IMG/VR virus record: IMGVR_UViG_3300010373_000015
Span: 1-44,158 of that record
Origin: a virus
Direction: 5' to 3' (one strand)
DNA: 44,158 nucleotides
Positions within the stretch are counted from its first letter, which is position 1; each line of letters starts with the position of its first letter. The notes beneath the pieces were generated by a model, which saw nothing but the letters and a program-made list of their open reading frames with translations, ran no database searches and was not told the origin of the DNA. The translations under genes and the position numbers were made by a program. This document shows, piece after piece, positions 1,374 to 28,257 of this stretch.

Positions 1374-2311
1374 TGAGTCTCACCCGCCACTGGCGTGACC
1401 GGCTGAACGTTGCCGCGCTGACTACCGGACGGCAGGAACATGTTCATGAAGCTGTCCATGTAGCCCTGCGCCTGATGGTTGGTGAAGCCCTGCGGGTCAC
1501 TCTGCTGGGCGAACTGGTTCGCCTCGGCCGGCGCACTCATGCCGTCGTAGATGCTGCCAGCCTTGTGCTGGGCATTCGTCTGTGCGGTGTGGAAGTTTGA
1601 GACGAAGGTGTTGAGCTGCTCCTGCGTCATGGTGTGACCAAGGGCTGCCTGCGCAGCCGTCTGAGCCTGGGCCATCAGCTCGGCCGGGTCGGTGAGACTG
1701 ACCGACGAGACACTCCCGCTACCCGAACCGCCCAGGCCGTTGACTGTCCCGTAGCCACCGGCGCCGCCCTGAGCGGCATTGGCGAGGTACTGCTTGAAGC
1801 TGACGGAGACGCCGGCAGACTCGGTGAGCTTGAGGTACTGCGTCATGGCCTTGGCCAGCGCCGTTTCGGTCTGGCTATCAAAGGTGCCCGAAGGCTTCAG
1901 GCCTGAGGCCCAAGGGCCTTGTGCCAGTGCGGCCTGGAGGCCCATGAACTGCGCAGGATCGTTGTAGCTCATGGCAGCGAACTGCTTCATGATGGTCTCG
2001 GCAGAAGCGTTGATGTCGAACGAGTGCGGCTTGTCCACGGCGACGGTCTTGCCAGCGACGGCATCCTGGCCGTTGTTGGTCGTCCTGCTCTGACCGCCAG
2101 TCTGCTTCGTCATTCCGGAGTCCCACCAGAAGACGTGGCCCTTGAGGAACGACGGCAGGTTCCATTCATCGACAGCGCCCGAGCTGTCAACCGGAATGGC
2201 TGCCGAGCCGGTGATGCCACCGAGGTTCAACGAGCCGTCAGGATTGACACTCACACTGCTTGAAGTGTTCGACCCCGACGCCCCGACAAGGCCACCAGTA
2301 GGGCTGGTCAT
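1370..2311 (-). CDS. Putative virion structural protein (313 aa)
   Basis: ATG at 2311 overlaps the stop of the giant upstream gene (ATGA), and the TGA at 1370-1372 overlaps the GTG of the tail-lysozyme gene. The protein is rich in Gly, Ser, Gln and Ala, with low-complexity Gly/Ser stretches at the start and middle and helical Gln/Ala-rich segments towards the C-terminus. I see no enzymatic motif. The gene is sandwiched between two likely internal virion proteins in a tightly coupled run, so it is most likely another internal or tail component. The family is not recognised. Confidence 0.75.
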   Translation of the reverse strand: MTSPTGGLVGASGSNTSSSVSVNPDGSLNLGGITGSAAIPVDSSGAVDEWNLPSFLKGHVFWWDSGMTKQTGGQSRTTNNGQDAVAGKTVAVDKPHSFDINASAETIMKQFAAMSYNDPAQFMGLQAALAQGPWASGLKPSGTFDSQTETALAKAMTQYLKLTESAGVSVSFKQYLANAAQGGAGGYGTVNGLGGSGSGSVSSVSLTDPAELMAQAQTAAQAALGHTMTQEQLNTFVSNFHTAQTNAQHKAGSIYDGMSAPAEANQFAQQSDPQGFTNHQAQGYMDSFMNMFLPSGSQRGNVQPVTPVAGETQ

Positions 2312-5300
2312 GAACCACTCCCGAATGGTGTGAGGTTGACGAGGTTGGTATTCAGGGCGCGAAGCACGCCGTTATACAGATCCATCAGCGGAGTGCCGCT
2401 GATGTTCTGCGTAACCCAGCCGTTGAAGGCTCCGAGCGCAGCGCTGCGGGCCTGAATGCTGGTCTGGTCCTGGCCCTTATGGCTGGCCTGGAAAGCGGCG
2501 TACGTGTCATAGCTCTTGACGAGATTGCCGAGTAGGGGCGCAAGGCCATCGGGCACCTGATTCTTGGCGAGCATGTCCCGTAGGTTGTTGAGTTCCGCCT
2601 TGGCGGTAGCTCGGCTGTCAGGGAAGCTGTCGATCTTCGATCCAAACGCTGCGTTCTGCGCCTTGAAGTCTGTCTCCCACTGAGACTTGGCAGCAGTGAT
2701 CTGCTGCGCCAGAACGGTGTTGCCAGCCGCCTTGGCCTGGGCAATCTGAGCGTCCAGCTTGTCAACGGCCGGGTAGTAGATCGCTTCGGCGTTGCGCACC
2801 GTCACGTCGTTCATGAAGCCTTCCGGCGTCTTGCGCTGGCGCAAGCCAAGCTCGATCTGCATCCGGTAAGCCTGGTCATTGAACGGCTGCTGCGTTGTCG
2901 GCTGCGGCAGGAAGTAGGCAGCCACGCTGCCGTACTTGCTGATGAAGTCGCTGTGGTTGGTCATCCACTTCAGTGCCGCCGTTGTGGGCGGCAGGCTGAC
3001 CTTGGCAGCGGCCATCTGCGTCTGCGCCGTCTCGAACGCCGAGCTAGCTGGCGCGTAAGACTCGTAGCTGCCGTCCGAGTTGAAGACAACCTTGTCCGGG
3101 TGCAACGCCGTGAAGATGGCATTGGCTCGAGCCAGGTCGCCATCAACGTCGTTCAGGATCGTCTTGTACTCGTCGTCCAGGTTGTGGACGCCGCGCTCCT
3201 GGAAGGCGAAGTCGGAATGCGTCTGTGGTGTGTCCTCCAGCGGCTGCGACGGCGAAGCCGGCGCGATGAGGCCGAAGACTGCCCGCAGGAAGAGCTGGTT
3301 GTGAACCTGCGTGCGCAGGTTGTTCAGGAACGCCTGCCGAACGTTGTCCGGTGCATCAGGTGCGGGCACCAAGCCTGAGGCTGCCAGGTTGGCGTACGCG
3401 CCCATCATGGACGACGCCAGAGCAGTGTTCCGGTCACCTTCGGACAGGTTGGCGAAGAACTTGTTCACCGGGGACGGCTCAAGCTGGCTGAACGTCTCGC
3501 CCTGACCAACCGGGCCGTTGAGTGCGCGGTCGATCTGATCGAAGATGATCTGCGCATTTCCAGGCAGGATCTTCTCAACCTCACGGAGCGGGATCATCAC
3601 CATCGGGCCGGCCGACATGCGAAGCGGGTCGTTCGCACCGGGGACGGCCATCAGCACACCGCCAGTCATGCTGGCGCTGACCGGGAAGCGAGCGATGGAC
3701 TCGAAGCCCGGAACCTTGGCAAGCTCTCGCAGCGCCATGTTCATGACGCCCGATCCTGGGTAGACGAACGTCGGCTCGCCATAGGTGTTCGTGTAGACGA
3801 AGCCCGACTGCACTGAGCCCTCGTAGGCCAGCATCATCTTGCGGGCCTTCAGCGGGTCCTGCCACAGGCCACCGCCCCAACGGCGGATCATGGCCTGAGT
3901 TGCTCGTGCGAACGGGAAGATGTTCCGAGTGATGATGTCGAACTGAGCCTTCTGGCCCGGATCGTCAACCAGTCGCTCTGTCTTGATCCACGCCTGCCGG
4001 ATCGACAGCTCCTTGGCCATGTTCTCGGCAGCGGTCTGGCTCAGGCCGCGCTCGACCATTCGGTCCACTGCGGCGTTGAGTCCAACGCGAGCGTCTGCAT
4101 AGTTCGCCAGGAAGACCGGCGACGTAGTGGTGCGCTGAAGCAGCCGCTCCACCATCCACTGGTAACCAGCACCAGTCACGTCCATCAGCGCCTCGGCCGC
4201 ACCGAGAGCGCCGCCGTTGGCGAGAGGCGTTACCTCAGGCGCAAGCGCCGAGTCAGGCAGGTTATCCCGCTTGAGGTTGTTGACGATCCAGTCACTGCTG
4301 GGAGCCTTGCCGTTCTCGTAGATGTGGTCAGCGAGATCCTGCTGGTACTTACCGTTCTGGCCAGTCAGAAGCTTCTTGTAGTCCTTCACGATGTCCGCAG
4401 CTTGCTGCTGCTTACCCATCGCAATCTCATCGGCGGTGTGAGCCGGTACGGCCTTACCTGCCTCATTCGGCCAGAAGCGACTCCCCCAGCCGATCAGGTG
4501 TGCGCTCTGCGCCATTTCTTTTGAGTCAAGCGCGGCAACAATGCCGTCGAGGTTGACGTTCTCCGGGTCATTCAGGTGGTCAATGACAGCCCGTGCAACC
4601 TGCGGAGACGGGTTGACGCGCTGAGCAAGTGCATTGGCGTAACGGTCGGCACCGACAGTGCCGTCCAGGTCGTGCTGTGTCCAGGAGACAGACACGCGCT
4701 CGCCAGGCTTGCGGTCCTTGGCGCGCTGGAAGGCGTGGGCCAGACGAGCTGGCCCCCAGCCAGCCTCGGTCACTGCGGCGGCTTCGTTAGCCGCTCGCTT
4801 GACGCCCAGGTCGCCGAACATCTGGCGGGCAAAGCCCTCCATGCCCTCGCTGAGCTCCTGCGGCCCCATTGTGGCCAGGGCCTTCAGTCGAGCGTCGTCC
4901 ATATAGACGCCGGTCATGTGCCGGTAGGCACGACCGGCCAGGGCAAACGGCATGAAGTCTGCGAGGCGAGTGGACAGCGAGCTGCGCCCGAGGATCTCTC
5001 CGGTAAGCATCGAGCTGTTCTTGATGGCAGTCGCCAGGCTGGTGTTGCCAGCCTCAAGCGCCAGTGCGTGCGCCACGATTGGCTTAGGCCGCAGAGTGGC
5101 TTGAACCTGCTCTTCGTGGGCAAGCTGAGTATTGGCGTCCGCTATCTGGCTCTTAGCCAGCGGGACAACCTTGCCAGTCTCGTCGGTGGTGCCTTCCTTG
5201 ATGAGACGCTGGAGCGTCTCAGTCTGAAGGCGTGAAGCCCGGAACTTGTCCAGATCCTCGACGCCGATGCCTCGGTCCCAGAGTTCCTTGTTCCGAGCGG

Positions 5301-8244
5301 TAGCAAAGGCGCGCGCCTTGATGGCGTCGCCGAAGCCGCCCTCCAGTCCAGTGCGCAGGTACGCCTCAAGCTGGTTACGAGTAACGGTCGCTGGCCGGAA
5401 CAGCCAGCCCATCTTCACCGAGGACATCATCAGGCTTGCCTGATCGGTAGTCAGCGCACGCCCTAGCGTGGCCTCCCAGAGTCCGAGCTTGTTGGCTGCC
5501 TGGTGCAGCTCCTGAAAGCTGGGCAGGTTCCATACGGTGTTCACCTGGCCGACGTGCAATGCAATCGGTCGGCCAGTCTCGTCCAGCAGGCTGTCGCCAG
5601 CCGTGTTGTACGACTCATCGACAGTGCGCCAGGACTTCATCAGGTTGCGCCCTGACTCCGTTGAGGCCAAGCCTGCGGAGTGCGCGATCTGGTCCAGCAT
5701 TCCGGTGATGACAGCCTTGCGCTGCGCACCATCACCGACGATGTACTGCGCACGCAACTGCGAAGCATCGGCGTGGTTCGCATACAGCCGCGTATACGAA
5801 TAGATCTTGTCCGCAGTGCTGGCGTCAGCCAGATCAAACTGGGTGTTCCGAGGCAGCAGGTTAGTAAGGCGAGTAGCCGCCAGGCGCGCTCGCTCTGCGA
5901 CGGCAGAGGGCATCGCCCAGCCGACGATGCGTCCACCGTTCCCGAGTGGACTACCTGTCTTGCGCAGGTTGTAGGCAACCTGTCCGCGTCCGGCTGGCGT
6001 AAGTGCGTAAGCCTTGGCGCGTGCCTGTGAGGGCATAGCGCCAGTGAGTCCACCGGCAGCTTCAGCGTCAGCCGCCAGCTCCGGGTCGGTGGCAACGTGA
6101 GCCGCCAGAAGCGCGTGCGCTTCCTTGACGGCTTCCTCGGCGTCGGCAACCTCACTGGCCGAGGCATCACCGTGCTCGAACTGGTCAGACAGCGCGTTGA
6201 AGCGCTGCTCCATGTCGTCCAGCTTGGAGCGCAGCCCAAGGTCTGTGTTGGCGTGCTCAAGGATGTTCTGTGCGGTGGTCTGCAAGAGCGCCATGTCAGC
6301 TTGCACGATGGCCGTGTGATCAGCCAGTGCCGCGCCAGTCAGGCTATCTACGGCGTCGTCGCCCTTTGCAGAGATCTGCGAGGCGAGCCCTTCGGTAACC
6401 CACTTGTCAGCGATAGCCGGATCGGCTGCCAGTCGGTCAGTGACCTTGGTAGCGTTTTCAGCGTTGCGCACGGCAGCTCGGCCGGCGAGCCAGCCGCTCA
6501 TCTTGCCGCGAATCAAGCGGGCACCCATGCCCGAGACTGCTCCTGGCATATACGGCGAAGACACGGCAGCCTTGCTGCCAGCTAGCCGCAGGGTCGCGCT
6601 CTGCGAGCTGATGTAGTCAGCAAGCTCTGCAAGGTTGGTGATCGGAGCACCCTTGCCGGTGACCGGGTTGGCCGTCAGGACTCCGGTGATCGGGTCCTTC
6701 GTCTCTTCCCAGCGAAGAATCTGATCCTTGCCGAGCACGTCCGCTCGCAGCGGGGAAAGCTCAGGGAACTGAGTCGTGATCTGCGCATCCAGCGAAGCAG
6801 CCTGGCGCACATCGCCGGTCTCGGCGGCTGCGGCCTGCGCGTGAGTCAGATCCAGGAAGTTCTGCGCACGGCGCTGCGTGTTGTTCAGGAAGACGCCCTG
6901 CTTCACCTGACCAACTGCGCCAGCCAGTGATGTGTCACCAGTGGCGGCAGCCTTGGCTGCCATGCCTGCCGGATCAAGGGAGGCGGCGACACGCTCAGCG
7001 TCAGCTACGGTGTCGAGTCCGACCTGGCCCAAGCGCGTCACCTGAACGGCCTTACCAAGTGCCATCGTCGGGTCGATGATGAACGAACCGGCAAGGTTGG
7101 CAACGGCGCTAACCGTTGCGTAAGTGTCGGGGTGCTTGACCGGATCAAGGCCAAGGGCGTGAGCCGTGTCGTTGCCGATGCCGGCAGTGCGGCTGGCGAG
7201 CTGGCGAGTCAGGGATGTGAACTCGGGGCTGCTGACCGCACTGATCTGATCCGCCACTTGCTGTGGCGTCAGGTTGGTGTTCGCCTCAATCGACTTGACG
7301 TAGCTCGTGGGGCTGTTCAGGAACTGTGTCGCCTGGTCAACCTTGTCCTGACCGTACTGATCCACGAGATCAGACGTGTCAGTCTTAGCCTGACCGCTGG
7401 CGTCGTACGCCAGGATGCTGAATGGGTTGCCGGGGTCGTAACCGGCAGCCTTCATCTGGGCGTCCTCGTTGGGACTGGCTCCAGCAATGGAGTTGATGTC
7501 CTGTCCGAGATTGCCCTTGTGGCTGTACGCCGTCGTCGGGTTCGGATCATTGCTGATACCAAGGTCATTGGCGACCTTGCTCAGGCCGGAACCTACGTCA
7601 CCGACCACCGTGTTGGCGACGTTCCAGCCCTTGGTCAGGGCGTTGGTGACGGGGCTGATCGTGTGCAAAGTCGGGTCGATAACGTCGCGCTCTGCCGGCG
7701 CGATGATGTCATTGTGCAGCGTCTGGAACAGACGCCCAATGCCCTTGGCCTTGTACTTGTTATCACCCGACGTGTCATACGCCAGACCGAGGCCGTTAGC
7801 GGTCTTCTGTGCGTTACCGCCATGCGTGCTGATGCTGATGACGTTGCCTGCGGCATCAGTGGCCAGCGTGCCATCACTGTTCAGCTTGGCAGTGAGCGAG
7901 CCACCGCTCTTCTGCTCGATCAGCTTGGCCGTGGCCGTCGCCTGATCGGCCTGCGTGAAGAGCACGTCCTGATAGGGGACGTTCAGGCTCTTGAGCTGGT
8001 CCTGCTGGCTCTGCGAGAGAACGATCGGGTGGTTGGTGGCGCGAGCAAGGTTGACTTGCTTCTCGGCGCTGAGCCCCTGCATGAACTGGTCAATGGCACC
8101 AGCCATCTGCGGCTGGGCCTTGGCCTGCATGAGCGAGTAGACGACGCCAGGCTGATCCTGGAGCATCTTCGTGCCAGTGAGCATTTGGGTGACGGAGCCG
8201 AGAGCGTTGCTCTCGTCCTGCGCCGAAGGGAGTGGCTGAGTCAT
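2308..8244 (-). CDS. Giant virion protein (1978 aa), possible ejection/internal core protein
   Basis: This is by far the longest gene, about 13% of the genome. I chose ATG 8244 because an AGGAG Shine-Dalgarno lies just upstream; a longer frame from 8295 would overlap the preceding gene. The product is mostly helical and rich in Ala, Gln, Asp and Leu, with a coiled-coil-like acidic segment near the middle and long soluble stretches without obvious membrane helices. I found no secure catalytic motif. Short-tailed phages usually carry one or more very large internal proteins that are ejected to form the DNA channel; length, position after the portal and neighbouring tail lysozyme fit that role. 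A large polyvalent protein is an alternative. Confidence 0.8.
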   Translation of the reverse strand: MTQPLPSAQDESNALGSVTQMLTGTKMLQDQPGVVYSLMQAKAQPQMAGAIDQFMQGLSAEKQVNLARATNHPIVLSQSQQDQLKSLNVPYQDVLFTQADQATATAKLIEQKSGGSLTAKLNSDGTLATDAAGNVISISTHGGNAQKTANGLGLAYDTSGDNKYKAKGIGRLFQTLHNDIIAPAERDVIDPTLHTISPVTNALTKGWNVANTVVGDVGSGLSKVANDLGISNDPNPTTAYSHKGNLGQDINSIAGASPNEDAQMKAAGYDPGNPFSILAYDASGQAKTDTSDLVDQYGQDKVDQATQFLNSPTSYVKSIEANTNLTPQQVADQISAVSSPEFTSLTRQLASRTAGIGNDTAHALGLDPVKHPDTYATVSAVANLAGSFIIDPTMALGKAVQVTRLGQVGLDTVADAERVAASLDPAGMAAKAAATGDTSLAGAVGQVKQGVFLNNTQRRAQNFLDLTHAQAAAAETGDVRQAASLDAQITTQFPELSPLRADVLGKDQILRWEETKDPITGVLTANPVTGKGAPITNLAELADYISSQSATLRLAGSKAAVSSPYMPGAVSGMGARLIRGKMSGWLAGRAAVRNAENATKVTDRLAADPAIADKWVTEGLASQISAKGDDAVDSLTGAALADHTAIVQADMALLQTTAQNILEHANTDLGLRSKLDDMEQRFNALSDQFEHGDASASEVADAEEAVKEAHALLAAHVATDPELAADAEAAGGLTGAMPSQARAKAYALTPAGRGQVAYNLRKTGSPLGNGGRIVGWAMPSAVAERARLAATRLTNLLPRNTQFDLADASTADKIYSYTRLYANHADASQLRAQYIVGDGAQRKAVITGMLDQIAHSAGLASTESGRNLMKSWRTVDESYNTAGDSLLDETGRPIALHVGQVNTVWNLPSFQELHQAANKLGLWEATLGRALTTDQASLMMSSVKMGWLFRPATVTRNQLEAYLRTGLEGGFGDAIKARAFATARNKELWDRGIGVEDLDKFRASRLQTETLQRLIKEGTTDETGKVVPLAKSQIADANTQLAHEEQVQATLRPKPIVAHALALEAGNTSLATAIKNSSMLTGEILGRSSLSTRLADFMPFALAGRAYRHMTGVYMDDARLKALATMGPQELSEGMEGFARQMFGDLGVKRAANEAAAVTEAGWGPARLAHAFQRAKDRKPGERVSVSWTQHDLDGTVGADRYANALAQRVNPSPQVARAVIDHLNDPENVNLDGIVAALDSKEMAQSAHLIGWGSRFWPNEAGKAVPAHTADEIAMGKQQQAADIVKDYKKLLTGQNGKYQQDLADHIYENGKAPSSDWIVNNLKRDNLPDSALAPEVTPLANGGALGAAEALMDVTGAGYQWMVERLLQRTTTSPVFLANYADARVGLNAAVDRMVERGLSQTAAENMAKELSIRQAWIKTERLVDDPGQKAQFDIITRNIFPFARATQAMIRRWGGGLWQDPLKARKMMLAYEGSVQSGFVYTNTYGEPTFVYPGSGVMNMALRELAKVPGFESIARFPVSASMTGGVLMAVPGANDPLRMSAGPMVMIPLREVEKILPGNAQIIFDQIDRALNGPVGQGETFSQLEPSPVNKFFANLSEGDRNTALASSMMGAYANLAASGLVPAPDAPDNVRQAFLNNLRTQVHNQLFLRAVFGLIAPASPSQPLEDTPQTHSDFAFQERGVHNLDDEYKTILNDVDGDLARANAIFTALHPDKVVFNSDGSYESYAPASSAFETAQTQMAAAKVSLPPTTAALKWMTNHSDFISKYGSVAAYFLPQPTTQQPFNDQAYRMQIELGLRQRKTPEGFMNDVTVRNAEAIYYPAVDKLDAQIAQAKAAGNTVLAQQITAAKSQWETDFKAQNAAFGSKIDSFPDSRATAKAELNNLRDMLAKNQVPDGLAPLLGNLVKSYDTYAAFQASHKGQDQTSIQARSAALGAFNGWVTQNISGTPLMDLYNGVLRALNTNLVNLTPFGSGS

Positions 8245-8254
8245 TCGACCACTC

Positions 8255-8725
8255 CTAAACTCCGTGGGCTTGTGCGGATGTGAGCAACTTGCCAATGACG
8301 CCCGTGGTATCCACCAGGGCGAGCTGCTGGAGCATGGCGCTCATAGCGCCCGTGCCCTGCTGTGACGGCTGAGCGATAGTGCTCAGAGCTTCCGAGCCAG
8401 CTCCTGGGCCGATGTCCACGCCGGTTGTGATGGGCTCATTGGGTCGAGCACTGGGCGCATTGAATGCACCGCCCTGATACGGCGGTGAGCCGGCCTGCTG
8501 GCCCTGCTGCGCAGCCGCCTGAGCGGCTGGAGCCATAGGTGCTTGTCCGGCCATCGGCGCTACGCGCTGCTGCGCGAGCTGCTGCTTGACCGAGCCGTAA
8601 GGCTGGTCTGGAACGGTGCTCATAACCTGCGCCGCACCGCCATCGGTGCGCTTGGAGAACTTGCCAGGGCCGGAAACGGCGTTCGGGTTCTGGGGCGCGC
8701 GGTAACCGCCGTGGCCGTTACTCAT
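8255..8725 (-). CDS. Conserved actinophage structural protein (156 aa)
   Basis: Starts at ATG 8725, overlapping the stop of the HExxH gene (ATGA). The N-terminus reads MSNGHGGYRAPQNPNAVSGP, a Gly/Pro-rich opening that resembles small virion proteins of many actinobacterial phages. It is followed by Gln/Ala-rich disorder and a short helical C-terminus. No catalytic motif or membrane segment is visible. It lies between the portal region and the giant protein, so a head-associated or internal structural role is likely; the exact function is unknown. Confidence 0.75.
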   Translation of the reverse strand: MSNGHGGYRAPQNPNAVSGPGKFSKRTDGGAAQVMSTVPDQPYGSVKQQLAQQRVAPMAGQAPMAPAAQAAAQQGQQAGSPPYQGGAFNAPSARPNEPITTGVDIGPGAGSEALSTIAQPSQQGTGAMSAMLQQLALVDTTGVIGKLLTSAQAHGV

Positions 8726-9052: not shown

Positions 9053-10906
9053 TTACGCACCAACAGGCTGAGAACTGCGGATCTGATTCTGGAGAACAGG
9101 CCTGTCCGCATCTCCGCGGAAGCCTGTAACCATTTCCTGCATGCTCGGTGGTCCTGCGTCTGGCACGGATACCCCGCCCTGGCCCTGAGAGCCATCCTGC
9201 GGGGCGTTCGGGTCTTGGGGTGCACCTGGGGTACCCCCTGCCGCTTGTGCCTGCATCGCAGCCTGCTGTTGAGCAGCCGCTTGAGCGGCTTGCTGCTGCG
9301 CCTGCTCCATAGCTGCGTACGCCTCGGAGACGGCATCCTCGATCGCCATGCCGTTCTCCAGACCCTGAATGGTCTGGACTGCCATCTTGATGATCGGCGT
9401 GGGGTCTTGCCCCTGCGCCGCCATCTGGCCGGATGCCTGGACCAGGGCGAAGACGCCCTGCTTCAGCGCCTCGCGCGAACCTTCGATGTCGGCCCGCTTC
9501 TGCTCCTGAATGGAGTCGATCGGCATGGGCAGGTTCTCACGAGCCGTGGACTTGGAAATCAGTCCAGCGCCCTCCAATTGCAAGATCGCAATGAGGGACT
9601 GCGAGGGCTCCATGCCCATCGAGAAGCCGTAAGTGACGGTGCAGTCGTAACGGTCCCCGATGTCGACCGAGGGAACGTAGTCAAACTCGTAGGACGAGCC
9701 CGAGATCGTCCCGGTGACGCGCTTGGAGACGTTCGGCCACCACTTGACGTCCATCTCAAAGCAGATGGCCGTGGCCTGCTGGAGAGCTTCCCGCAGCACC
9801 ACCTGACCGCCGCGGATCTGGCTGTCGAATGTGCCCAGCAGGGCCGTGACGCCCTTGCCGGTGATGACAGAGGCATTGACCGAGCCAGTACGTGCGTCCG
9901 GGTAGCGCGAGCCGACTCGCAGCTCCTGATCTAGCACCTGTCCTTCGGCGAAGATGGAACTGGGAAGATCAAGGCCAACCTTGTGGATGTCCTTGGCGTT
10001 GTCGGATTGGAGAATGGCGTGCGGGCCAATGGCCAGCTCGTCCATGTCGCTGGGAACAGCGATCGGAGACTGAACAGCGATCGACGCGGCCTCAAGGGCC
10101 AGCGTTGACATGATCGAGCGTGCAACCTGCACCCACACCACGTCGTCGAACTGACCGCGTGGGTGATCGCCCTCTCCGGGGCGCTCGGCAATCCAGACCG
10201 GACAACGGTCCAGCTTGTGCGCGTAAGCGCTCAGGATGAGTCCGTTGCGGTCGGGAAGAATCAGGGAGACGTAAGTCTCGTCAACCCAACGAACCAGCTC
10301 CAGCTCGGTCTCGCCGCCCACCGCGCGACCCGTCTTCGGGTCATTGCGGATGGTGCCGGCGTACTCCGGGAATTGAGCGCACAAATCGTCTACAGATCGA
10401 CGCCATCTGTGTGCGTATACCTTGCACCGACCCCTGCGATCCAGCTCGTAGTACGAGCCTCGCGGGTCTTCCAGATGCATGTAGGGCTTCTGGGCCTTGA
10501 TGTCCGGTTCGACAAAGATCGGGAACCAGCCGTACGTTACGAAGCGGTCGGCTGCGGACTCCATCTGGAGTTCCAGCCGCGAGTGCGTCCAGTAGTCGTC
10601 ACCGACGCGGTTCTTGCGCTCGGAGCGCTTGAGGTCTGCGTCGGACTTCATCTTGCCCGAAGTACAGGCCAGGGCCGGTAGGGGTGCTAGCCCCTCGGCC
10701 ATGTCGTGCGCAACGATGTCAACGAAGTTGGCAATCGGTGAACCGTTGAAGCTGATAGAGAAGTTCAGCTCTTCGGGGAAGAGTTGGCGAATGTTCCCCT
10801 GGCGAACCTCATGGATCAGCTCTGCGTTGCGCTCGCGCTTGGCAAAGCGCATCTTGAGCCGGCCGTAATGCGCAAGCATCTGGGTATTACGCAGCGGGAT
10901 CGTCAC
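9053..10906 (-). CDS. Portal protein
   Basis: The 617-aa product starts at GTG 10906, overlapping the terminase stop (GTGA). Its length, position right after the large terminase, and a mixed alpha/beta body ending in a Gln/Ala- and Gly/Pro-rich tail (from about residue 540) fit a podovirus-type portal. The portal forms the dodecameric DNA gate of the head. The assignment rests mainly on synteny and general composition, since portals have no short diagnostic motif. The low-complexity tail could be a barrel or a disordered extension. Confidence 0.78.
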   Translation of the reverse strand: MTIPLRNTQMLAHYGRLKMRFAKRERNAELIHEVRQGNIRQLFPEELNFSISFNGSPIANFVDIVAHDMAEGLAPLPALACTSGKMKSDADLKRSERKNRVGDDYWTHSRLELQMESAADRFVTYGWFPIFVEPDIKAQKPYMHLEDPRGSYYELDRRGRCKVYAHRWRRSVDDLCAQFPEYAGTIRNDPKTGRAVGGETELELVRWVDETYVSLILPDRNGLILSAYAHKLDRCPVWIAERPGEGDHPRGQFDDVVWVQVARSIMSTLALEAASIAVQSPIAVPSDMDELAIGPHAILQSDNAKDIHKVGLDLPSSIFAEGQVLDQELRVGSRYPDARTGSVNASVITGKGVTALLGTFDSQIRGGQVVLREALQQATAICFEMDVKWWPNVSKRVTGTISGSSYEFDYVPSVDIGDRYDCTVTYGFSMGMEPSQSLIAILQLEGAGLISKSTARENLPMPIDSIQEQKRADIEGSREALKQGVFALVQASGQMAAQGQDPTPIIKMAVQTIQGLENGMAIEDAVSEAYAAMEQAQQQAAQAAAQQQAAMQAQAAGGTPGAPQDPNAPQDGSQGQGGVSVPDAGPPSMQEMVTGFRGDADRPVLQNQIRSSQPVGA

Positions 10907-12774
10907 ACCGCCTCCATTCGCTCTTGCTTTTCACGCCTAAGCTCGGCCAAGTTGATGACCTGCTGTCTTCCTCGCGCCGCAGGAGTCAGGAACGGTGACC
11001 TCATATGGGTTTCCCTGTTCTGTTTGCGCTGAAGTATTTTTGAGAAGGCCAGGTGGGTAAACCACAGCGCCATGACAAGGTCCGTCTTCGTCTTCTGGGC
11101 CATGCCCGAAGGCGACCAGACGGTCAATTGCTGAATAAGGTCGTTGACCCATTGGTTCTGGCGAGTGCTGGGCAGCTCCATGAGCTGACCCGACGTGGCC
11201 TTGCGCCATCCGTTGGGAGTCTGCTTGTCCTCGATGACACAAGAGTCAAAGAGCGGGGCCATCGTCTGGACGCCCCAGTCGTCATCGAACTTGTTCGCCG
11301 TGGTGTAGTGCGGCGTGATCTTGCAGCCGCGCCCACGAATGAACTGCTCAAGTTCGGGGAGCTGGGTGATGAAGCGCTGGACCGCGTTCTTCTCAATGAC
11401 CCACTCGTGGAGGTTGTAGACCTCGGTGTAGTACTTCAGGGTCTTGATGATCTCGCCGGCTGTGGCGTTCTTGTGGTTCCAGCCGTCCAGGACGTAGCGC
11501 TTGAGGGTTTCGCGGTCGATGGCCGCGATGATGATGGCTGAGTTGCCGGATGCGGCAGGGTCGAAGCCACCCACCAGATACATGCCCGCCATGCCGCCTC
11601 GGCGATGGCCGATCCCTTCGGCCGTCATAGGGCCAGGGAAGCGGAGCATGTTCACCGATGCGTTGACGGCCTCGGCGCGAAAGGTCATGTCGTCGTCAAT
11701 GTCAAGCTGCTGGTAGATCAGGTTCCAGCCAGAGTCGCGCCTTCTGCGCGCCAGTGACTTGCCGTTCCACCGCTCAGGCCAGAGGGTTTCCCAGGTCGAG
11801 CTGTCGCCATCGCCGTAGTCCAGAACGGCTGGCTGGCGGAAGTAGGTCCAGATCCGCTCGTCGTCACCGTCGCGCTCATCCAAGAGCGTGCGGTAGATGT
11901 CCATCGGGGCAACGCGCGTGCCTAGCACGAGCAGAAGACCACCGCCGTCCTGGTGGGCCGGCAGGCGGGAGTCGATGTCCCGGTTGATGAGGCGAAGCTG
12001 GTAGTCGGTCTCACGGGCGTTCGTGGCATCTGCCATGTCATCGATGACCACCAGGTCAGCGCGGCGACCGTAGATCTGCCCCCGCAGGCCCATGGCCTGC
12101 ACCGTGGGGTCCTTCTGGATGCCTTCTTCGTTCTTGCCCTTGACGTAGATCCGGTCCGTGCTCCACGAGCCGTCAGGGTCTTTCCAGCCGCCCTCCGGGG
12201 CAAACCGAAGGTGCATGTCCTGGTAGATCGAGGATGTGAGCTTGAGCTTGATCTCGTAGAGGAAGTCCTTGGCCATCTGCGAGCCCTTGGACACGATGAC
12301 CACTCGGATGTCCGGGTTCTTGTGGATCAGCCAAACGATGTAGTTCACCGTGAAGGTGGTGCTCTTGCCGTGCGACGGTGGCACGTTGATGAGCACTCGA
12401 TCAGAGTAGCCGCGCTCGTAGTTCATCGTCTCGTGCATGTCGCGGGGCTCTCGCCCCTCGATCACGTCGAGCATCCGTAGCTGGTGTGGGAAGAGCGGCT
12501 GCTTGAGCCACTCGCGGCAGAAGGTCTCGAAGTCGGGAACCTCGGGGCGACCCTCGGACTTCTCTTCCTCGCGAGCCGTGCGGACGTTATCGACGGACGC
12601 CTTGAAGGCTTCGTCCGTCTTCCTCCAGGAGCGGTAGGTCTCTTCGGTGCGACCCACCACTGACATAGCCTCGGCAACCTTCAGGCCCTCAGCGATGAGC
12701 TGAAGTACCTTCGCCTTGGCCTCTACGACCGGGATGGACTTCTGGCCCGAACCTCTGGAAAGGTTCGTGGCCAT
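10903..12774 (-). CDS. terL: Terminase large subunit with N-terminal HTH domain
   Basis: The 623-aa packaging motor has Walker A VPPSHGKS (residues 131-138) and Walker B LVVIDD (239-244). An RNase H-like nuclease half opens at GGFDPAASG with a metal-binding Asp. Residues about 15-65 form an extra helical domain of the type found in small terminases (AEGLKVAEAMSVVGRTEETY followed by a basic helix). DNA recognition may therefore be fused onto the motor, and no separate small terminase is recognisable nearby. ATG 12774 has GAGAGG upstream. It translocates DNA into the prohead and cuts it; packaging mode cannot be deduced securely. Confidence 0.93.
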   Translation of the reverse strand: MATNLSRGSGQKSIPVVEAKAKVLQLIAEGLKVAEAMSVVGRTEETYRSWRKTDEAFKASVDNVRTAREEEKSEGRPEVPDFETFCREWLKQPLFPHQLRMLDVIEGREPRDMHETMNYERGYSDRVLINVPPSHGKSTTFTVNYIVWLIHKNPDIRVVIVSKGSQMAKDFLYEIKLKLTSSIYQDMHLRFAPEGGWKDPDGSWSTDRIYVKGKNEEGIQKDPTVQAMGLRGQIYGRRADLVVIDDMADATNARETDYQLRLINRDIDSRLPAHQDGGGLLLVLGTRVAPMDIYRTLLDERDGDDERIWTYFRQPAVLDYGDGDSSTWETLWPERWNGKSLARRRRDSGWNLIYQQLDIDDDMTFRAEAVNASVNMLRFPGPMTAEGIGHRRGGMAGMYLVGGFDPAASGNSAIIIAAIDRETLKRYVLDGWNHKNATAGEIIKTLKYYTEVYNLHEWVIEKNAVQRFITQLPELEQFIRGRGCKITPHYTTANKFDDDWGVQTMAPLFDSCVIEDKQTPNGWRKATSGQLMELPSTRQNQWVNDLIQQLTVWSPSGMAQKTKTDLVMALWFTHLAFSKILQRKQNRETHMRSPFLTPAARGRQQVINLAELRREKQERMEAV

Positions 12775-12789: not shown

Positions 12790-12951
12790 TTACTTGCAGT
12801 CGCAGTCGCGGCCGGGATGCAGATGACCGAACAGGCCTGGGAAAAGATCGTGAACCTCGCGGCCTGTCATACGGCCAGCGACCTCAAGCTCAAGTGCTCT
12901 CATGACGACATCGCTGTAGGCCTTGATGGCCGCTTGCTCGACTTCCGTCAC
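12790..12951 (-). CDS. Small protein upstream of terminase (53 aa)
   Basis: A short frame from GTG 12951, with GAAGGG about seven bases upstream, to TAA 12790-12792, ending 15 bp before the terminase start. The product begins MTEVEQAAIKAYSDVVMRAL, is helical and acidic/amphipathic, and ends in a Cys/His-rich tail HLHPGRDCDC. Coding-like codon use and tight placement support it as the first gene of the late operon. It could be a regulatory or small-terminase-like partner, but no family is recognised. Confidence 0.6.
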   Translation of the reverse strand: MTEVEQAAIKAYSDVVMRALELEVAGRMTGREVHDLFPGLFGHLHPGRDCDCK

Positions 12952-13275
12952 GACATGCCCTTCATTTGATCCCTCATGTTGTCGTGTTCACGTTTATTGC
13001 CCACCACCGCAACAAAAACAACCGAGGAGTTTGTGCGCGTGGACTCTCTGGAGCTACCTCGACAGAGCCAACCCACAGCCTCGATGGGCTGTGAGGTCTA
13101 AAAGATTTTCTTCCGCACCAGTACGTTCAGGATTCCGTCAAGTTCGTGAATCCTGAACACTTACGTCCGAAGCACCAAAGCTTCGGACAGTCACTCAGTC
13201 GCCGTGAGGCTACTGACTTAGCGGATGCGACCTGAGTGGGACCGAAGGTCCAACTACTCAGAGAGCATCCTTACT

Positions 13276-13339
13276 GTCGGCTTCTGTCTGCCGCCCGTCT
13301 CGTTCGGCTTTGGGGCCGAACGTCGGCGGCGAAGCCGAC
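13276..13339. repeat. Long three-tier hairpin
   Basis: Outer arms GTCGGCTTC (13276-13284) and GAAGCCGAC (13331-13339) enclose GCCGCC/GGCGGC (13290-13295, 13325-13330) and an inner GTTCGGC/GCCGAAC (13302-13308, 13315-13321) with a six-base loop. All three stems are perfect, so this can form an extended RNA hairpin or cruciform. No U-run follows on either strand, so it is not a simple terminator. Confidence 0.85.
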
Positions 13340-13501
13340 GTACTTAGTTCGGTCGTTCGGGAATGTAACTACATTCCCTCACTCCCTCACCTTATATAGC
13401 GGGTCTGAAAAGCTCATTTATTCCCGATGATCTTGCTGTACTCAGCAAGCTATCAGCGATCATTTGGTAGAAGCCCTGCAAAGAAGCACCTTACCTATTC
13501 T

Positions 13502-13517
13502 TGTGACGTGCGTCACA
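13502..13517. promoter_or_regulatory. CRP/GlxR-consensus palindrome
   Basis: TGTGACGTGCGTCACA is a perfect palindrome except for its two central bases and matches TGTGA-N6-TCACA, the canonical CRP/GlxR-type site. It also fits the GTG-N6-GNCAC form reported for Streptomyces Crp. A host cAMP-receptor-family regulator could bind here. Binding is inferred from the match only. Confidence 0.55.
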
Positions 13518-13528
13518 GTAGGTACTAG

Positions 13529-13543
13529 TCTCACTATGTGAGA
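13529..13543. promoter_or_regulatory. Operator-like palindrome TCTCAC-TAT-GTGAGA
   Basis: A perfect 6-3-6 palindrome 11 bp after the CRP-like site. Size and symmetry suit a dimeric HTH repressor. No cognate regulator is identified. Confidence 0.45.
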
Positions 13544-13561
13544 TAGACAAGCGTATGAATG

Positions 13562-13573
13562 AGAACCCGTTCT
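13562..13573. promoter_or_regulatory. Operator-like palindrome AGAACCCGTTCT (copy 1)
   Basis: A 12-bp palindrome of the form AGAAC-N2-GTTCT. A second copy lies 45 bp away, centre to centre, at 13607-13618, close to four helical turns. The half-site resembles actinobacterial LexA boxes, but LexA uses a four-base spacer, so a phage repressor is more likely. Confidence 0.45.
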
Positions 13574-13606
13574 ACGTACAGATGTTCGAAGAAACAGCAG
13601 GTTTCT

Positions 13607-13618
13607 AGAACAGGTTCT
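13607..13618. promoter_or_regulatory. Operator-like palindrome AGAACAGGTTCT (copy 2)
   Basis: Second AGAAC-N2-GTTCT palindrome, extended to TAGAAC-AG-GTTCTA by one more base pair on each side. It pairs with the site at 13562-13573. A further palindrome, TTCACT-CTGA-AGTGAA, follows at 13624-13639. Confidence 0.45.
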
Positions 13619-14140
13619 ATCCGTTCACTCTGAAGTGAATCCCTACCCGGTAGTACCCCCCACCTGTTTTGCGGTCCATTCACCCCCTCATACCCCACCC
13701 CTTATTGGTCGCTCAGGCGACCTGTTGCGACAACCAGGAGCGCCGGCAGCTCTCCCCCGTACTACCCGTGTCACCAGAAAAATGAGGGTAGGTAGTACAA
13801 GAAATCAGGCCGCGTGACTAACAACCGCGGGTCAAGTCTTCGGCCTCTGGGCAGGAGACGAGACGATCGAGCACCTGGCACGGCTACAAGGCGAGCACTG
13901 CTCACCGCGAGACTGCCGGCAATCCACTTTGAGGCACGTCTCAAGGCATTGCCCACCAATCGAGTAGGCATCGTGTACTTACGCGTGCTTATTGGGAATG
14001 ATTCCCATTAGTAGTGCGATAGCACGCTCGCCATGCATCTACATGCACACGCATACGTTGAGCGTTCATCCATCCATCCGACTGCATCTCTGGCGTGGCT
14101 TATGGTCACAAGTTGGTAACGATGCTTGCTTGTCCTCTTG

Positions 14141-14190
14141 ACTTGGTTGCAAGCCATAGAGCAACTTGGTCACTGCAAGCCACAGACCAA
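14141..14190 (+). promoter_or_regulatory. Direct repeats upstream of the early operon
   Basis: ACTTGGT followed by GCAAGCCATAGAGCAA (14149-14164) is repeated as ACTTGGT plus GCAAGCCACAGACCAA (14175-14190), a 26-bp period. The repeats lie immediately before the first early ORF and are likely regulator binding sites. A TTGACT at 14138-14143 could be a -35 element, but I see no convincing -10 at normal spacing. Confidence 0.45.
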
Positions 14191-14207
14191 GCGAGAGGAT
14201 GCAAGTG

Positions 14208-14655: not shown

Positions 14656-14837
14656 GAGGCCACCACCGCACCAAAGTGCAAAGCGGTCGGAACCCTGCGA
14701 ATGGCCTGCCGAACTACCGGGCCTATTGCGTCAAGGACTGCGGCTGGGTTGGCCAAGTGGAGCAGTCTCGCGTCGGCGCAGAGCGCGACGGCGAGGACCA
14801 CGAAATCACAATGAGCCGCATTGAGGACGCGTCATGA
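14652..14837 (+). CDS. Small early protein with Cys pair (61 aa)
   Basis: Starts and ends in ATGA overlaps. The N-terminus is basic (MRGHHRTKVQSGRNPANGLP). The middle contains YCVKDCGWVG, a CxxxC pair resembling half a zinc ribbon, followed by an acidic tail. Possibly a small nucleic-acid-binding protein; no family is known to me. Confidence 0.7.
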   Translation: MRGHHRTKVQSGRNPANGLPNYRAYCVKDCGWVGQVEQSRVGAERDGEDHEITMSRIEDAS

Positions 14838-14923
14838 CCGCGCTTGTGGCGTTCGTTCTGGCGCTTCCCGGACTGCTCATCATGGCGACGGGCGTCGCAC
14901 TGCTCAAGGTGCGTGCACTGTGA
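14834..14923 (+). CDS. Single-span membrane peptide (29 aa)
   Basis: ATG 14834 overlaps the previous stop and the TGA overlaps the GTG of the amidoligase gene. The peptide (MTALVAFVLALPGLLIMATG and nine more residues) is almost entirely one hydrophobic helix with a basic C-terminus. It would insert in the host membrane with the tail inside. Its position directly before the amidoligase suggests coupled expression. Function unknown. Confidence 0.6.
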   Translation: MTALVAFVLALPGLLIMATGVALLKVRAL

Positions 14924-16593
14924 CCGCCCCGCAGAGTGCTGGGCTCACTTTCGACTTCGGCCTAGGGGTCGTACCAGCCCATCGGCACGTCAACCCTGAC
15001 GGCACTCAAGGCGGTTGGGTTGCCGATACTGCCTACGTTGCGCCAACGGCGTACGTAGGGCCTGACGCGCGGGTCTCCGGCAGCGCGCGTGTCTACGACA
15101 CCGCGCGTGTCTACGACACCGCGCGTGTCTACGACAACGCGTGGGTCTACGACACCGCGCAGGTCTCCGACACCGCGCAGGTCTCCGGCAACGCGTGGGT
15201 CTACGACAACGCGCGTGTCTACGGCAGCGCGCGGGTCTACGGCAGCGCGTGGGGCGCGTGGGTCTCCGGCAGCGCGCGTGTCTACGGCTACGCGCGGGTC
15301 TTCGACACCGCGCGGGTCTTCGGCAGCGCGCGTGTCTACGGCTACGCGCGGGTCTTCGGCAACGCGCAGGTCTACTGCAGCGCGTGGGTCTCCGGCACCG
15401 CGCGGGTCTCCGGCAGCGCGCGTGTCTACGACACCGCGCGTGTCTACGGCTACGCGTGGGTCTACGGCAACGCGCGGGTCTACGGCAGCGCGCAGGTCTA
15501 CGAATCAATAAACACAACTCCCGAAGTGCAATCGATAGACGAGGCTGTCGCGCTACGCACATGTTCGCGGTGCTACGGCAGATTCAACGAAACATCGGAC
15601 AATTTCTCACAGTCTGGCACTCGTTGGAATGCATGGTGCCGCGCATGTATGCGCACTTACGCGCGAGAGCGTCGCGCGGCTACTCCGCGTGTTACGCGGA
15701 CGCCGGCAAACCGCACGTTCGGAGTAGAGATCGAGTTTCATGGCTCACAAGAGACTCTAGCCCGCGCAATGCGCAACGTCGGCCTGACGTGTGAAGTTGA
15801 GAGCTACAACCACACGATCTACCGAAATGGTGAGTGGAAGGTTATCGGCGATGCATCCGTGGCAAACGGCGGCGAGCTTGTCTCGCCGGTACTGCGGGGC
15901 AGGACAGGCTTTGCCGCTATCCGTAAGGCGTGCCAAGCGCTCCGCGCGGCAGGTTGCACCGTAAGCACGGCCACCGGCCTACATGTCCATCACGGCGTCA
16001 GTGACCTGACTGTCTCCGCTTTCAAGCTGTTGGCTCACAACTGGTACGACACGCAAAGCGCTGTCGATCAAATGGTGAGCGCAAGTCGTCGCGGACGCAG
16101 CACCTACACGGGTCCGTTGCGTCGCGATGACCTCGCCAGCCTGGACTGCATCACGTCCATGACTGCCCGCACCGACAATGGCGCGCGTCAGATCACGGAC
16201 TATATGGACCGTTACCGCGCACTCAACTTCAATGCCTTTGCCAAGTACGGCACGGTTGAGGTTCGCCAGCATCAGGGCACTACCAACGCCGACAAGATCG
16301 TCAACTGGATCAAGTTCGGCCAGGCAGCTATCGCTGCGGCAGTTGCCGGCACTGTCTGCGAGGCAACAACAGGCAGCGACTTGCTCGCACAACTGGCAGA
16401 GCAAGGACACCTCGCCGCTGACGTTGCCGAGTTCCTCAACGGTCGAATTGTCGAACTGTCCAGCGCTTACGGCCAGGATTCCGAATCCGTTGAAGAGCCT
16501 GAATCGGATGACGATGAGGACGACGACGAAAGCCTGTGCATGTGCCACGCATGCGTCAACGACCGCGAAGAAGAATATGCGAGCGCGGCATGA
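14920..16593 (+). CDS. Amidoligase fused to hexapeptide beta-helix and zinc ribbon (557 aa)
   Basis: Starts at GTG 14920 in a GTGA overlap. Residues about 33-195 are some 27 tandem hexapeptides of the form V-[YSF]-[GD]-x-A-[RWQ], a left-handed beta-helix, broken once by a three-residue insertion near residue 112. Residues 215-243 form a Cx2C/Cx2C zinc ribbon. Residues about 267-490 match the glutamine-synthetase-like amidoligase family: FGVEIEF (Glu270, Glu272), GDASV...GELVSPVL (Asp311, Glu319), GLHVHHG (His355, His357) and TVEVRQHQGT. A very acidic linker and a Cx(1)C-His tail follow. Such enzymes join carboxyl and amino groups using ATP. The GAT-like gene downstream is the usual partner. 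The substrate is unknown; the beta-helix may position the enzyme on a surface or polymer. Confidence 0.88.
   Translation: MTAPQSAGLTFDFGLGVVPAHRHVNPDGTQGGWVADTAYVAPTAYVGPDARVSGSARVYDTARVYDTARVYDNAWVYDTAQVSDTAQVSGNAWVYDNARVYGSARVYGSAWGAWVSGSARVYGYARVFDTARVFGSARVYGYARVFGNAQVYCSAWVSGTARVSGSARVYDTARVYGYAWVYGNARVYGSAQVYESINTTPEVQSIDEAVALRTCSRCYGRFNETSDNFSQSGTRWNAWCRACMRTYARERRAATPRVTRTPANRTFGVEIEFHGSQETLARAMRNVGLTCEVESYNHTIYRNGEWKVIGDASVANGGELVSPVLRGRTGFAAIRKACQALRAAGCTVSTATGLHVHHGVSDLTVSAFKLLAHNWYDTQSAVDQMVSASRRGRSTYTGPLRRDDLASLDCITSMTARTDNGARQITDYMDRYRALNFNAFAKYGTVEVRQHQGTTNADKIVNWIKFGQAAIAAAVAGTVCEATTGSDLLAQLAEQGHLAADVAEFLNGRIVELSSAYGQDSESVEEPESDDDEDDDESLCMCHACVNDREEEYASAA
14970..15069. repeat. 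100-bp inverted repeat, copy in amidoligase gene
   Basis: These 100 bases are identical, in reverse complement, to 23196-23295 in the second hexapeptide gene. They encode the shared module PAHRHVNPDGTQGGWVADTA and following residues. Both copies run straight into hexapeptide repeats that also share many short identical units. Confidence 0.95.
15070..15505 (+). repeat. Tandem 18-bp hexapeptide-coding repeats
   Basis: An array of 18-bp units close to GCGCGTGTCTACGGCAGC, about 24 copies with variation mostly at defined codons (Tyr/Ser/Phe, Gly/Asp, Ser/Thr/Asn/Tyr, Arg/Trp/Gln). One nine-base insertion lies near 15252. The array is prone to slippage and unequal recombination. Confidence 0.9.
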
Positions 16594-16841
16594 AACTCAC
16601 CGTGATTTGGCCGGACGGAACCGTGAACACGGGCAAGTCCTGGCAGGACATTGAGAACGCAATACGGTCTGCCCAATGGCAGACGCATGGAGACCGTGCC
16701 GCATTCCGAATGGATATGCGGCACCGCTGCAAGGTCTGGAGCGGAGTACGCCCGGACATTGTGAAAGCCACAAGCGAGGACTTCATCAAAGCACTTGAAG
16801 CGAGCGGCCTTTGCCGCGTCGAGATTGAGGGTACAAAATGA
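16590..16841 (+). CDS. Small protein between amidoligase and GAT genes (83 aa)
   Basis: ATG 16590 overlaps the amidoligase stop and the TGA overlaps the GAT start. The start choice is fixed by this coupling. The sequence opens with a beta-hairpin (MKLTVIWPDGTVNTGKSWQD), then a helix and a basic aromatic middle (RMDMRHRCKVWSG), and ends in alpha/beta. No known domain is evident. Being locked between the two enzymes, it may be an accessory factor or substrate carrier of the amidoligase system. Confidence 0.75.
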   Translation: MKLTVIWPDGTVNTGKSWQDIENAIRSAQWQTHGDRAAFRMDMRHRCKVWSGVRPDIVKATSEDFIKALEASGLCRVEIEGTK

Positions 16842-17827
16842 CCACCACACGTAAGCCGTTCATCCTAGTTCTGGAAGGTCTGTCCGGCGCAGCCGAATGC
16901 GTTGATGAGGCAGGCGGCGAGTCCTACTCCATGACGCCGTTTCTCGGCCGCATGCAGATCATGCACGAGCTATTCGCAGAGGGGTGCGTTGACGGCCTGC
17001 TTCTTACCGGAGGCGGGGACGTTGACCCACGACGGTACGGCCAGACGGCCCACAAGGAGACGTACGGCGTAAGCGAGGACAGGGACACCGTTGAGTTCTC
17101 GGCGGTGCGCCTGGCACGTCGGTACGGCCTGCCGATCATGGGTATCTGTCGCGGCGCGCAAGTGCTCAACGTCGCGCATGGCGGCTCGCTCTGGCAGCAC
17201 TTGCCGGACCGTGGTGGCAAATCTGCCCGCAAGCACAAGAGCGGCACGATGACCGTGGTCACCAAGACTGGCAGTCTGGCGCATGAGGCTATGGGTCACG
17301 GTGCACCAGTGCTCCACTTGCATCATCAGGCCGTGCGCAAGCCTGGCAAGGGCTTGCGTGCTACCGGATGGCATGGCGACGGAACGATTGAAGTCATTGA
17401 GTCCGTTACCGGCGCACCGTGGCGTGTCGGTGTGCAATTCCATCCCGAGTACGCGGCGTACGGCGATCCTGAGCGCGGATTCTTCCGCCAGCTCGTCCTT
17501 GCTGCGGCTAAGGGCGCCGGCCTTCCAATTCCGGCAGAGTGCCCGCCCAAGCCTGTCGTCTCCAATGTCCACACATGGCCGACTGTTATTGGCGGTAAGT
17601 CAGAGTCCAAGCTCTCAGAGCATGGCCAGGCAGTGCTGGACGCATGGAAGGCCGAGTCTGCGGCCGGCTACTGCGCAAAGTGCCAGACCGAGTTCGACTG
17701 GCGAGAGGACTACCTCGACCACCAGCGCATCATTCACGACGACTGGAGCGATTGGGCGGATGAACACGAGTACGCGCCGCTAGTTCGGCGTGCACCGCTA
17801 GCCCTTCCGGGCAGGGTTGAACTGTGA
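16838..17827 (+). CDS. Class-I glutamine amidotransferase / peptidase C26-like protein with zinc finger
   Basis: The 329-aa product carries the class-I GAT fold: LLLTGGGDVDPRRYG (residues 55-68), nucleophile elbow MGICRGAQVLN with Cys104, and GVQFHPEY with His202 and Glu204, a complete catalytic triad of the gamma-glutamyl hydrolase (PuuD-like) group. Residues 279-300 add a C2H2-like finger (Cys279, Cys282, His295, His300), unusual for this family. It is translationally coupled behind the amidoligase. In described amidoligase systems such enzymes either release ammonia for the ligase or trim the amide product. Which applies here is not visible. Confidence 0.87.
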   Translation: MTTTRKPFILVLEGLSGAAECVDEAGGESYSMTPFLGRMQIMHELFAEGCVDGLLLTGGGDVDPRRYGQTAHKETYGVSEDRDTVEFSAVRLARRYGLPIMGICRGAQVLNVAHGGSLWQHLPDRGGKSARKHKSGTMTVVTKTGSLAHEAMGHGAPVLHLHHQAVRKPGKGLRATGWHGDGTIEVIESVTGAPWRVGVQFHPEYAAYGDPERGFFRQLVLAAAKGAGLPIPAECPPKPVVSNVHTWPTVIGGKSESKLSEHGQAVLDAWKAESAAGYCAKCQTEFDWREDYLDHQRIIHDDWSDWADEHEYAPLVRRAPLALPGRVEL

Positions 17828-21306: not shown

Positions 21307-21502
21307 CTGCTGATTCCCGCACTGGCACCATTGCTGTTGAGTTGAACAGGATCGCTTGACCTCGATAGTCCCGACAAGGACCAGGACTACAAGCCGAGGC
21401 CTCTTTACAGAGCCAGCAGGGCTCAGCCTTGAGCGCTTTCCATTCCACGTCACAAGCAGAACAGTGGTAAGTCATCATTGGCGGTACGTAGGTGGTGGTC
21501 AC
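21293..21502 (-). CDS. Zinc-ribbon small protein (69 aa)
   Basis: GTG 21502 shares one base with the stop of the sigma-like gene. CSACDVEWKALKAEPCWLC forms two CxxC knuckles 12 residues apart, a compact zinc ribbon, and the rest is unstructured. It overlaps the next gene by 14 bp. Possibly nucleic-acid or RNA-polymerase binding, by analogy with other phage ribbons. Confidence 0.65.
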   Translation of the reverse strand: MTTTYVPPMMTYHCSACDVEWKALKAEPCWLCKEASACSPGPCRDYRGQAILFNSTAMVPVRESADDPL

Positions 21503-22134
21503 TAGCCGGCCTCGGCGCTATCCGTAAGCGCCTTAGCGGTGGCATTCGCCAACACCTTGCGCTTGCCGACGTACGGATTACTACCGCCCAGCCAGTTGAC
21601 TACCGCCTGAACGGCGTCCTCCCAGCGGCCCATGCCGCGCTCTTCGTGCCGGAAGCAATCCGTAACCCATTCAGGCAGCTTGCTCAGCGCTCTGCGAATG
21701 TCGAGCACCATCACTAGGCCGTTGCCAGCCTCGTGCGGTACCTGCTTGGACTTGCGTCCAGACTCCGCACCTTCTGCCGGCATCTCACCGTCGAACGTCT
21801 CGTCCAGCACTAGCGGCATAAGCCCCTCGACAAGTGCGGGGCTGTACCACATCACGTCGTCGGGCTCATAGCCGACACGAGCTGCCTTCTCGGCTTCGCC
21901 GTAGCGAATGCCAGCATCCTCGAAGGACCGGAACAGGCGCGTCGTCTGCTGTGGTGAACTGCGCAGCCACTTGCGTACGCGACGGTCACCCTCGCCGTAC
22001 AGCCAGACGTACATCTCTTGCTGTAAGTCGGCCGTCTCGACGCCGTAGGCGCGGTAGCGCCAGGCGATACGACGAGCCACATGCGGGATCAGTCTGTCCC
22101 GCACATCGTCGTATGTGTAAGCCTCCTGAGTCAC
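21502..22134 (-). CDS. Putative sigma-like or regulatory protein (210 aa)
   Basis: ATG 22134 overlaps the exonuclease stop. The N-terminal helices (LIPHVARRIAWRYRAYGVET followed by ADLQQEMYVWLY) look like region 2 of sigma-70 factors, in which an Asp-Leu-x-Gln-Glu helix contacts core polymerase. The C-terminal helices, near LPEWVTDCFR, are less clearly region 4. If it is a sigma factor it could switch transcription to late or early promoters; a remote structural resemblance only is possible. Confidence 0.45.
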   Translation of the reverse strand: MTQEAYTYDDVRDRLIPHVARRIAWRYRAYGVETADLQQEMYVWLYGEGDRRVRKWLRSSPQQTTRLFRSFEDAGIRYGEAEKAARVGYEPDDVMWYSPALVEGLMPLVLDETFDGEMPAEGAESGRKSKQVPHEAGNGLVMVLDIRRALSKLPEWVTDCFRHEERGMGRWEDAVQAVVNWLGGSNPYVGKRKVLANATAKALTDSAEAG

Positions 22135-28242: not shown

Positions 28243-28257
28243 AATCACAAGAGCGTT

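Follow-up and report, generated by a model that had tools for sequence, protein, structure and literature searches.

A predicted genome-end junction and a tandem hairpin array in the gene-free gap of a temperate tailed phage

What purpose does a long gene-free gap rich in inverted repeats serve between the divergent operons of a temperate tailed phage? We addressed this question in one whole virus record of 44,158 bases, referred to below as the window, in which the gap spans positions 12952 to 14207 and lies between a leftward terminase operon and one that runs rightward from 14208. The sequence-only reading had proposed the gap as a replication origin, a partition site, or a control center with several operators.

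The gap and its inverted repeats

The first 123 bases of the record are identical to its last 123, indicating a circularly permuted assembly. Recognized genes encode a large terminase, a portal, a capsid-like protein, an integrase, an endolysin, a DnaB-like helicase, a primase-like Toprim protein, and an exonuclease, and the source is a temperate tailed phage from soil. A search with the window found no isolated phages related at the DNA level. The rightward operon is headed by small open reading frames (ORFs) and an amidoligase gene; at positions 14821 to 17827, it encodes an amidoligase with YdcK-type beta-solenoid repeats and then a glutamine amidotransferase/peptidase C26, a cargo that is uncommon for a phage.

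The gap is noncoding, with no ORF above 77 amino acids, and we counted 13 perfect dyads in it (arms of at least 6 bp, loops of 3 to 14) compared to 2.6 expected from 100 dinucleotide shuffles (standard deviation, 1.6; maximum, 8). Dyads with arms of at least 7 bp numbered seven, against 0.7 expected from such shuffles. These counts bear out the at least twelve perfect dyads reported earlier, and both the hairpin with 11-bp arms (13125 to 13158) and the tiered hairpins (13276 to 13339 and 13223 to 13270) proved to be real. Raw counts are similarly high in GC-rich coding stretches of this genome; the dyad count alone is therefore weak evidence, and comparison with relatives was needed to decide. 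The distinctive feature is a tandem run of hairpins in the left half of the gap that recurs in relatives. Rather than several separate operators, the dense dyads mostly belong to this single array, which lies in the terminase-operon leader; to the right of the terminus element described below, the gap contains one hairpin with arms of at least 7 bp in 400 nt (0.3 expected) and is not notably dyad-rich.

The gap has features that could suit an origin or a partition site, being noncoding and rich in dyads, with a GC content of 53.9% versus about 61% and an AT-rich TATATAA stretch. However, iterons and DnaA-type repeats are absent from the gap, in which every direct-repeat family has two copies, the cumulative GC skew reaches its maximum near 20 kb and not at the gap, and the helicase, primase-like, and exonuclease genes are located elsewhere, at 22 to 28 kb. 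We found nothing in favor of a partition site: no parA or parB was recognized among the proteins searched, a set that covered part of the small ORFs, and the phage carries an integrase. Either function is thus highly improbable.

A predicted terminus element and candidate control sites

Records of Streptomyces cluster-BF phages contain direct terminal repeats of 253 to 276 bp, and the 253-bp repeat of the FlowerPower group is stated in its genome announcement (PMC9753666). In FlowerPower, Manuel, Dennebes, and Immanuel3, the right edge of the repeat (slash) falls inside CCCC..GGGTTGTTAA..GGAGTG/AGTCCCC..AAATTTCC, upstream of a T7-type terminase; the deposited repeat of Abafar differs, at 396 bp. 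By this comparison, an element in the gap (Table 1) is shown to be the sequence-level equivalent of the deposited ends of these relatives, with its two blocks spaced by 42 bases compared to 40 in cluster-BF phages. Uncultured relatives also carry the element ahead of terL: with at most 2 mismatches of 13, we detected it there in 32 of 98 loci and in 0 of 98 base shuffles scored alike.

Table 1. Features of the gap and of the adjoining terminase operon
Feature	Positions	Strand	Basis or remark
Terminase large subunit (terL), T7-like, HTH-like N-terminal stretch	10903-12774	minus	profile matches
53-aa ORF, first reading frame of terminase operon	12790-12951	minus	sequence reading; conserved in L002
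Array hairpin 8, interrupted stem	13041-13069	minus	
Array hairpin 7, 7-bp arms	13074-13093	minus	in L002 replaced block-wise, weaker fold
Array hairpin 6, 11-bp arms, 12-nt loop	13125-13158	minus	
Array hairpin 5, 9-bp arms	13165-13188	minus	
Array hairpin 4, interrupted stem	13189-13218	minus	
Array hairpin 3, tiered, inner cUUCGg-type loop	13223-13270	minus	
Array hairpin 2, three-tier (9 + 6 + 7 bp)	13276-13339	minus	
Array hairpin 1, 8-bp arms	13359-13378	minus	
Promoter-like motif CCCGCTATATAAGGTGAG (CCGCTATATAAGGTGAG) of terminase operon	13386-13403	minus	unique in window; recurs before arrays
Candidate Crp-type operator TGTGACGTGCGTCACA	13502-13517		exact TGTGA-N6-TCACA, single one in window
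Predicted genome-terminus (packaging-end) element GACCCgcGGTTGTTAG...GTACTACC...ATTTTTC, 58 bp; GACCCGCGGTTGTTAG...CTTGTACTACCTACCCTCATTTTTCT	13776-13833	minus	comparison with relatives
Recurrent regulator-type repeat CGTTACCAACT	14111-14121	minus	motif recurrence

The terminase of the window is 37% identical to those of its nearest isolated relatives, the Streptomyces cluster-BF phages, and it matched both T7 maturase B (PDB 4bij; E = 7e-8) and the NCBIfam T7-type model NF033889 (E = 4.7e-27, below the curated cutoff). Its HTH-like N-terminal stretch matched HTH_23 below the cutoff and may be a small-subunit domain fused to the protein; a small terminase subunit encoded separately was not recognized. 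The gap appears to be the junction of two genome ends combined with the control region and leader of the late operon (terminase and structural genes), and its end region is a not previously known member of an already known kind of genome end. Most likely, the terminase would cut at or near the element at 13776 to 13833 to generate a short direct terminal repeat. If this is true, a large group of uncultured phages and prophages shares one genome-end element, allowing ends and packaging sites to be called from sequence alone.

Other observations concern the surroundings of this element. The GGTAGTAC octamer emphasized in the sequence-only reading is partly terminus element; its three copies in the gap were found (13649 and 13791 on the plus strand, 13766 on the minus strand), but two more occur elsewhere in the window, at 19573 and 29116. 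In the related record L035, bases 1 to 127 are repeated as the last 127 bases and the break is close to the terminus element; this end repeat may come from overlap in the assembly or be a trace left by a real end. Relative to the related locus L002, short blocks at 13936 to 13978 and 14030 to 14066 are exchanged between near-identical flanks, which suggests small-scale recombination.

In the minus-strand reading, a Crp-type operator lies about 260 bp beyond the terminus element. At 13503, GTGACGTGCGTCAC fits the Streptomyces coelicolor Crp consensus GTG(N)6GNCAC (PMC10033298). This shorter consensus also occurs elsewhere in the window, and the full palindrome only here. Crp-type sites are found in the equivalent interval of cluster-BF phages and of L033, and the site is supported as a candidate Streptomyces-type Crp operator. 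The promoter-like motif follows, and every other site in the window has at least 5 mismatches to its core. An identical motif or near variant precedes the array in L032, L003, L035, L131, L129, L134, L126, and L184. We infer from these sequences that CCCGCTATATAAGGTGAG may have promoter activity; the region showed no consensus sigma-70 promoter. A motif search across viral contigs produced five new matches, apparently by chance, which lacked arrays and were mostly inside open frames.

The repeat CGTTACCAA, present in the window at 14111 and 28254 and upstream of terL in eight related loci, is a candidate operator of a phage regulator. It sometimes occurs as two copies 11 bp apart (sites at 14111 to 14121, 28254 to 28264, and upstream of terL in L004, L126, L129, and L136), and it lies near the gap, near a repressor-like gene, and near the late promoters of relatives. 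That repressor-like gene (28838 to 29305) gave a weak PHROG match, and beside it, positions 28640 to 28880 form a second dyad-dense stretch with a GAAGCCCAGGCC/GGCCTGGGCTTC hairpin and the strongest plus-strand folding residual of the window. The earlier proposal of a control center is supported by this recurrent repeat together with the conserved counterpart of a mapped genome end, the Crp-type operator, and the promoter-like motif found nowhere else in the window.

A recurrent array with changing sequences

Eight consecutive hairpins from 13378 to 13041 on the minus strand fill the leader of the terminase operon between the promoter-like motif and the first ORF. This leader folds with a z of -8.1, within a range of -6.9 to -10.5 for the window, L002, L032, L003, L033, L004, and L035, compared to +0.5 to -3.3 for the leaders of cluster-BF phages. 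We observed comparable arrays of 4 to 11 hairpins in at least 10 related lineages, including Streptomyces prophages, of which L113 and L114 have dense arrays; in two Streptomyces prophages, 11 hairpins partly overlap open frames. The order of terminus element, promoter-like motif, and array is common to L032, L003, L033, L004, L129, L131, L134, and L126, loci with terminase identities of 39 to 67% and unrelated hairpin sequences.

Across eleven lineages, hairpins reached 15.5 per kb between the promoter motif and the first gene (58 observed versus 2.7 expected), compared to 4.4 per kb from terminus to motif, 3.4 on the upstream side of the terminus, and 2.7 in the terL coding sequence. Since landmarks were placed by eye and lineages were mostly chosen after their arrays were seen, the difference among zones is more secure than the size of the excess itself. 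In an unselected count, 48 of 98 loci and none of the shuffles had 4 or more hairpins within 350 nt, with coding DNA, which has about four times the shuffle rate, included at some loci. An array adjoining terL was absent in L126, L037, L135, and L138. In L126, two small genes precede terL and the structured stretch is further upstream, following the promoter motif rather than terL, with only one perfect arm-7 hairpin in the leader. L114 and L095, which are more distant, have hairpins from immediately after the terminus element onward, ahead of any recognized promoter motif.

Between the window and the closely related L002, we found no changes among 211 paired bases and 4 among 95 unpaired bases at 13100 to 13405 (Fisher P = 0.009). 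The whole leader, including the replaced block at 13074 to 13093, showed no such bias, and the fold was derived from the window's own sequence; the test is thus supporting rather than decisive. The replacement sequence of L002 in that block still folds, more weakly. In L131 and L035, a different hairpin stood at the aligned place in 7 of 10 cases and the same hairpin in 1 of 10. Across relatives, it is the array that recurs, whereas the hairpin sequences turn over. A strand test of G-U versus A-C did not separate RNA from DNA selection (its rRNA control was without power), and sense versus antisense folding energies gave no consistent bias.

Possible roles of the array and known systems

We tentatively prefer, at somewhat below an even chance, the reading that the gap, with the anatomy described, is a genome-end junction and late control region in which the array shields the late leader. 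Late transcription would most likely start at the TATATAAG motif near 13390 and run leftward, so that the late mRNA would carry all eight hairpins in its untranslated leader. By pairing as the leader emerges, they would keep it double-stranded and block Rho loading and 5' ribonucleases, enabling the long late operon to be transcribed and its mRNA to persist. Comparison among relatives establishes, as sequence features, the promoter-like motif and a structurally conserved array, and we infer that the array is transcribed and protects the leader. A role in the transcript is favored by the location after the promoter-like motif, and a general effect of pairing by the free replacement of sequence; as unrelated hairpins take each other's place without a change in number or position, the function is probably sequence independent. 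The missing sigma-70 consensus, the single arm-7 hairpin of L126, and the L114 and L095 hairpins that precede any motif speak against this reading.

Position directly after the promoter motif would also suit attenuators or terminators bypassed only with a phage antiterminator or an alternative sigma factor, a role that we consider unlikely. With lambda Q, RNA polymerase reads through a terminator close to the promoter. Just upstream of its array, L003 carries a sigma-70 region 4-like gene, inserted at 575 to 862 of that locus between the terminus element and the terminase-operon promoter motif, and a weak sigma-like match was found at 21502 to 22134 of the window. Hairpin clusters lacking U-tracts have been put forward as terminators in a number of bacteria, high-GC species among them (PMC8355165), and AlpA enables passage of RNA polymerase through a promoter-proximal terminator (PMC9371919). 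However, at least 5 T in the next 9 bases followed only 4 of 90 hairpins in 17 leaders, no part of the array was called as a terminator, and no antiterminator gene was recognized. A dedicated antitermination RNA that binds RNA polymerase, as HK022 put does, is very unlikely: the array is just downstream of a promoter-like motif, as is putL (PMC9378689), and a GTTCG...CGAAC hairpin with an 11- to 12-nt loop is nearest the gene in L032 and L003, differing by one compensatory pair, but arrays share no sequence between lineages, their stems are perfect compared to the bulged pair of put, and an Rfam search found no match in the gap and only a tRNA in the window.

Alternatively, the hairpins may work at the DNA level, forming cruciforms or single-strand fold-backs next to the genome end that aid terminal-repeat duplication or concatemer resolution, an idea resembling the hairpin intermediate proposed for T7. 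The array is beside the terminus element in all lineages, the terminase is of the T7 type, stems are almost purely Watson-Crick, and the L114 and L095 hairpins begin right at the terminus. In the clade of the window, however, hairpin density peaks after the promoter motif and not beside the terminus, and cluster-BF phages, which share the element, carry no more than one to two strong hairpins. We regard a DNA role as unlikely. N4-style hairpin promoters for an injected RNA polymerase were rejected, as the 1995-aa protein has no convincing polymerase motif. This protein (2308 to 8295) had no match in Pfam, PHROGs, or PDB.

The row of hairpins probably has a job not described so far. It is possible, if doubtful, that these loci represent a widespread class of hairpin arrays that evolve fast, are not bound to any sequence, and occupy the late leaders of phages encoding T7-type terminases, with hairpin number under selection and an undescribed cis mechanism in late transcription, mRNA survival, or genome-end processing. 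If this is true, the selected property of the leader is many hairpins rather than sequence, which is unusual for regulatory RNA.

Hairpin arrays in phage late leaders were undescribed in the literature searched, with subscription journals mostly outside its coverage, and to that extent the array is an undescribed variant of structured phage leaders. Like HK022 put, it consists of predicted RNA hairpins close to a phage promoter, here a predicted one. The put sites are about 70 nt with two bulged stem-loops, and putL and putR are similar in sequence (PMC9378689), whereas the arrays have 4 to 11 near-perfect hairpins without shared sequence. The terminase profile places the window with T7, through maturase B and the NCBIfam T7-type model. 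With lambda Q and AlpA, the array shares a structured leader right after the promoter; those systems combine a terminator with its own antiterminator, whereas the array has no T-tracts and no recognized antiterminator. The cluster-BF phages (Beephvirinae: FlowerPower, Manuel, Dennebes, and Immanuel3) resemble the window in having divergent operons separated by a long stretch without genes, the GGTTGTTA terminus element, sites of the Crp type, a TATATA motif, and a T7-like terminase. Their gene-free region is split between two physical genome ends, and they differ from the window in having one to two strong hairpins per leader rather than an array and terminases that are 37 to 40% identical.
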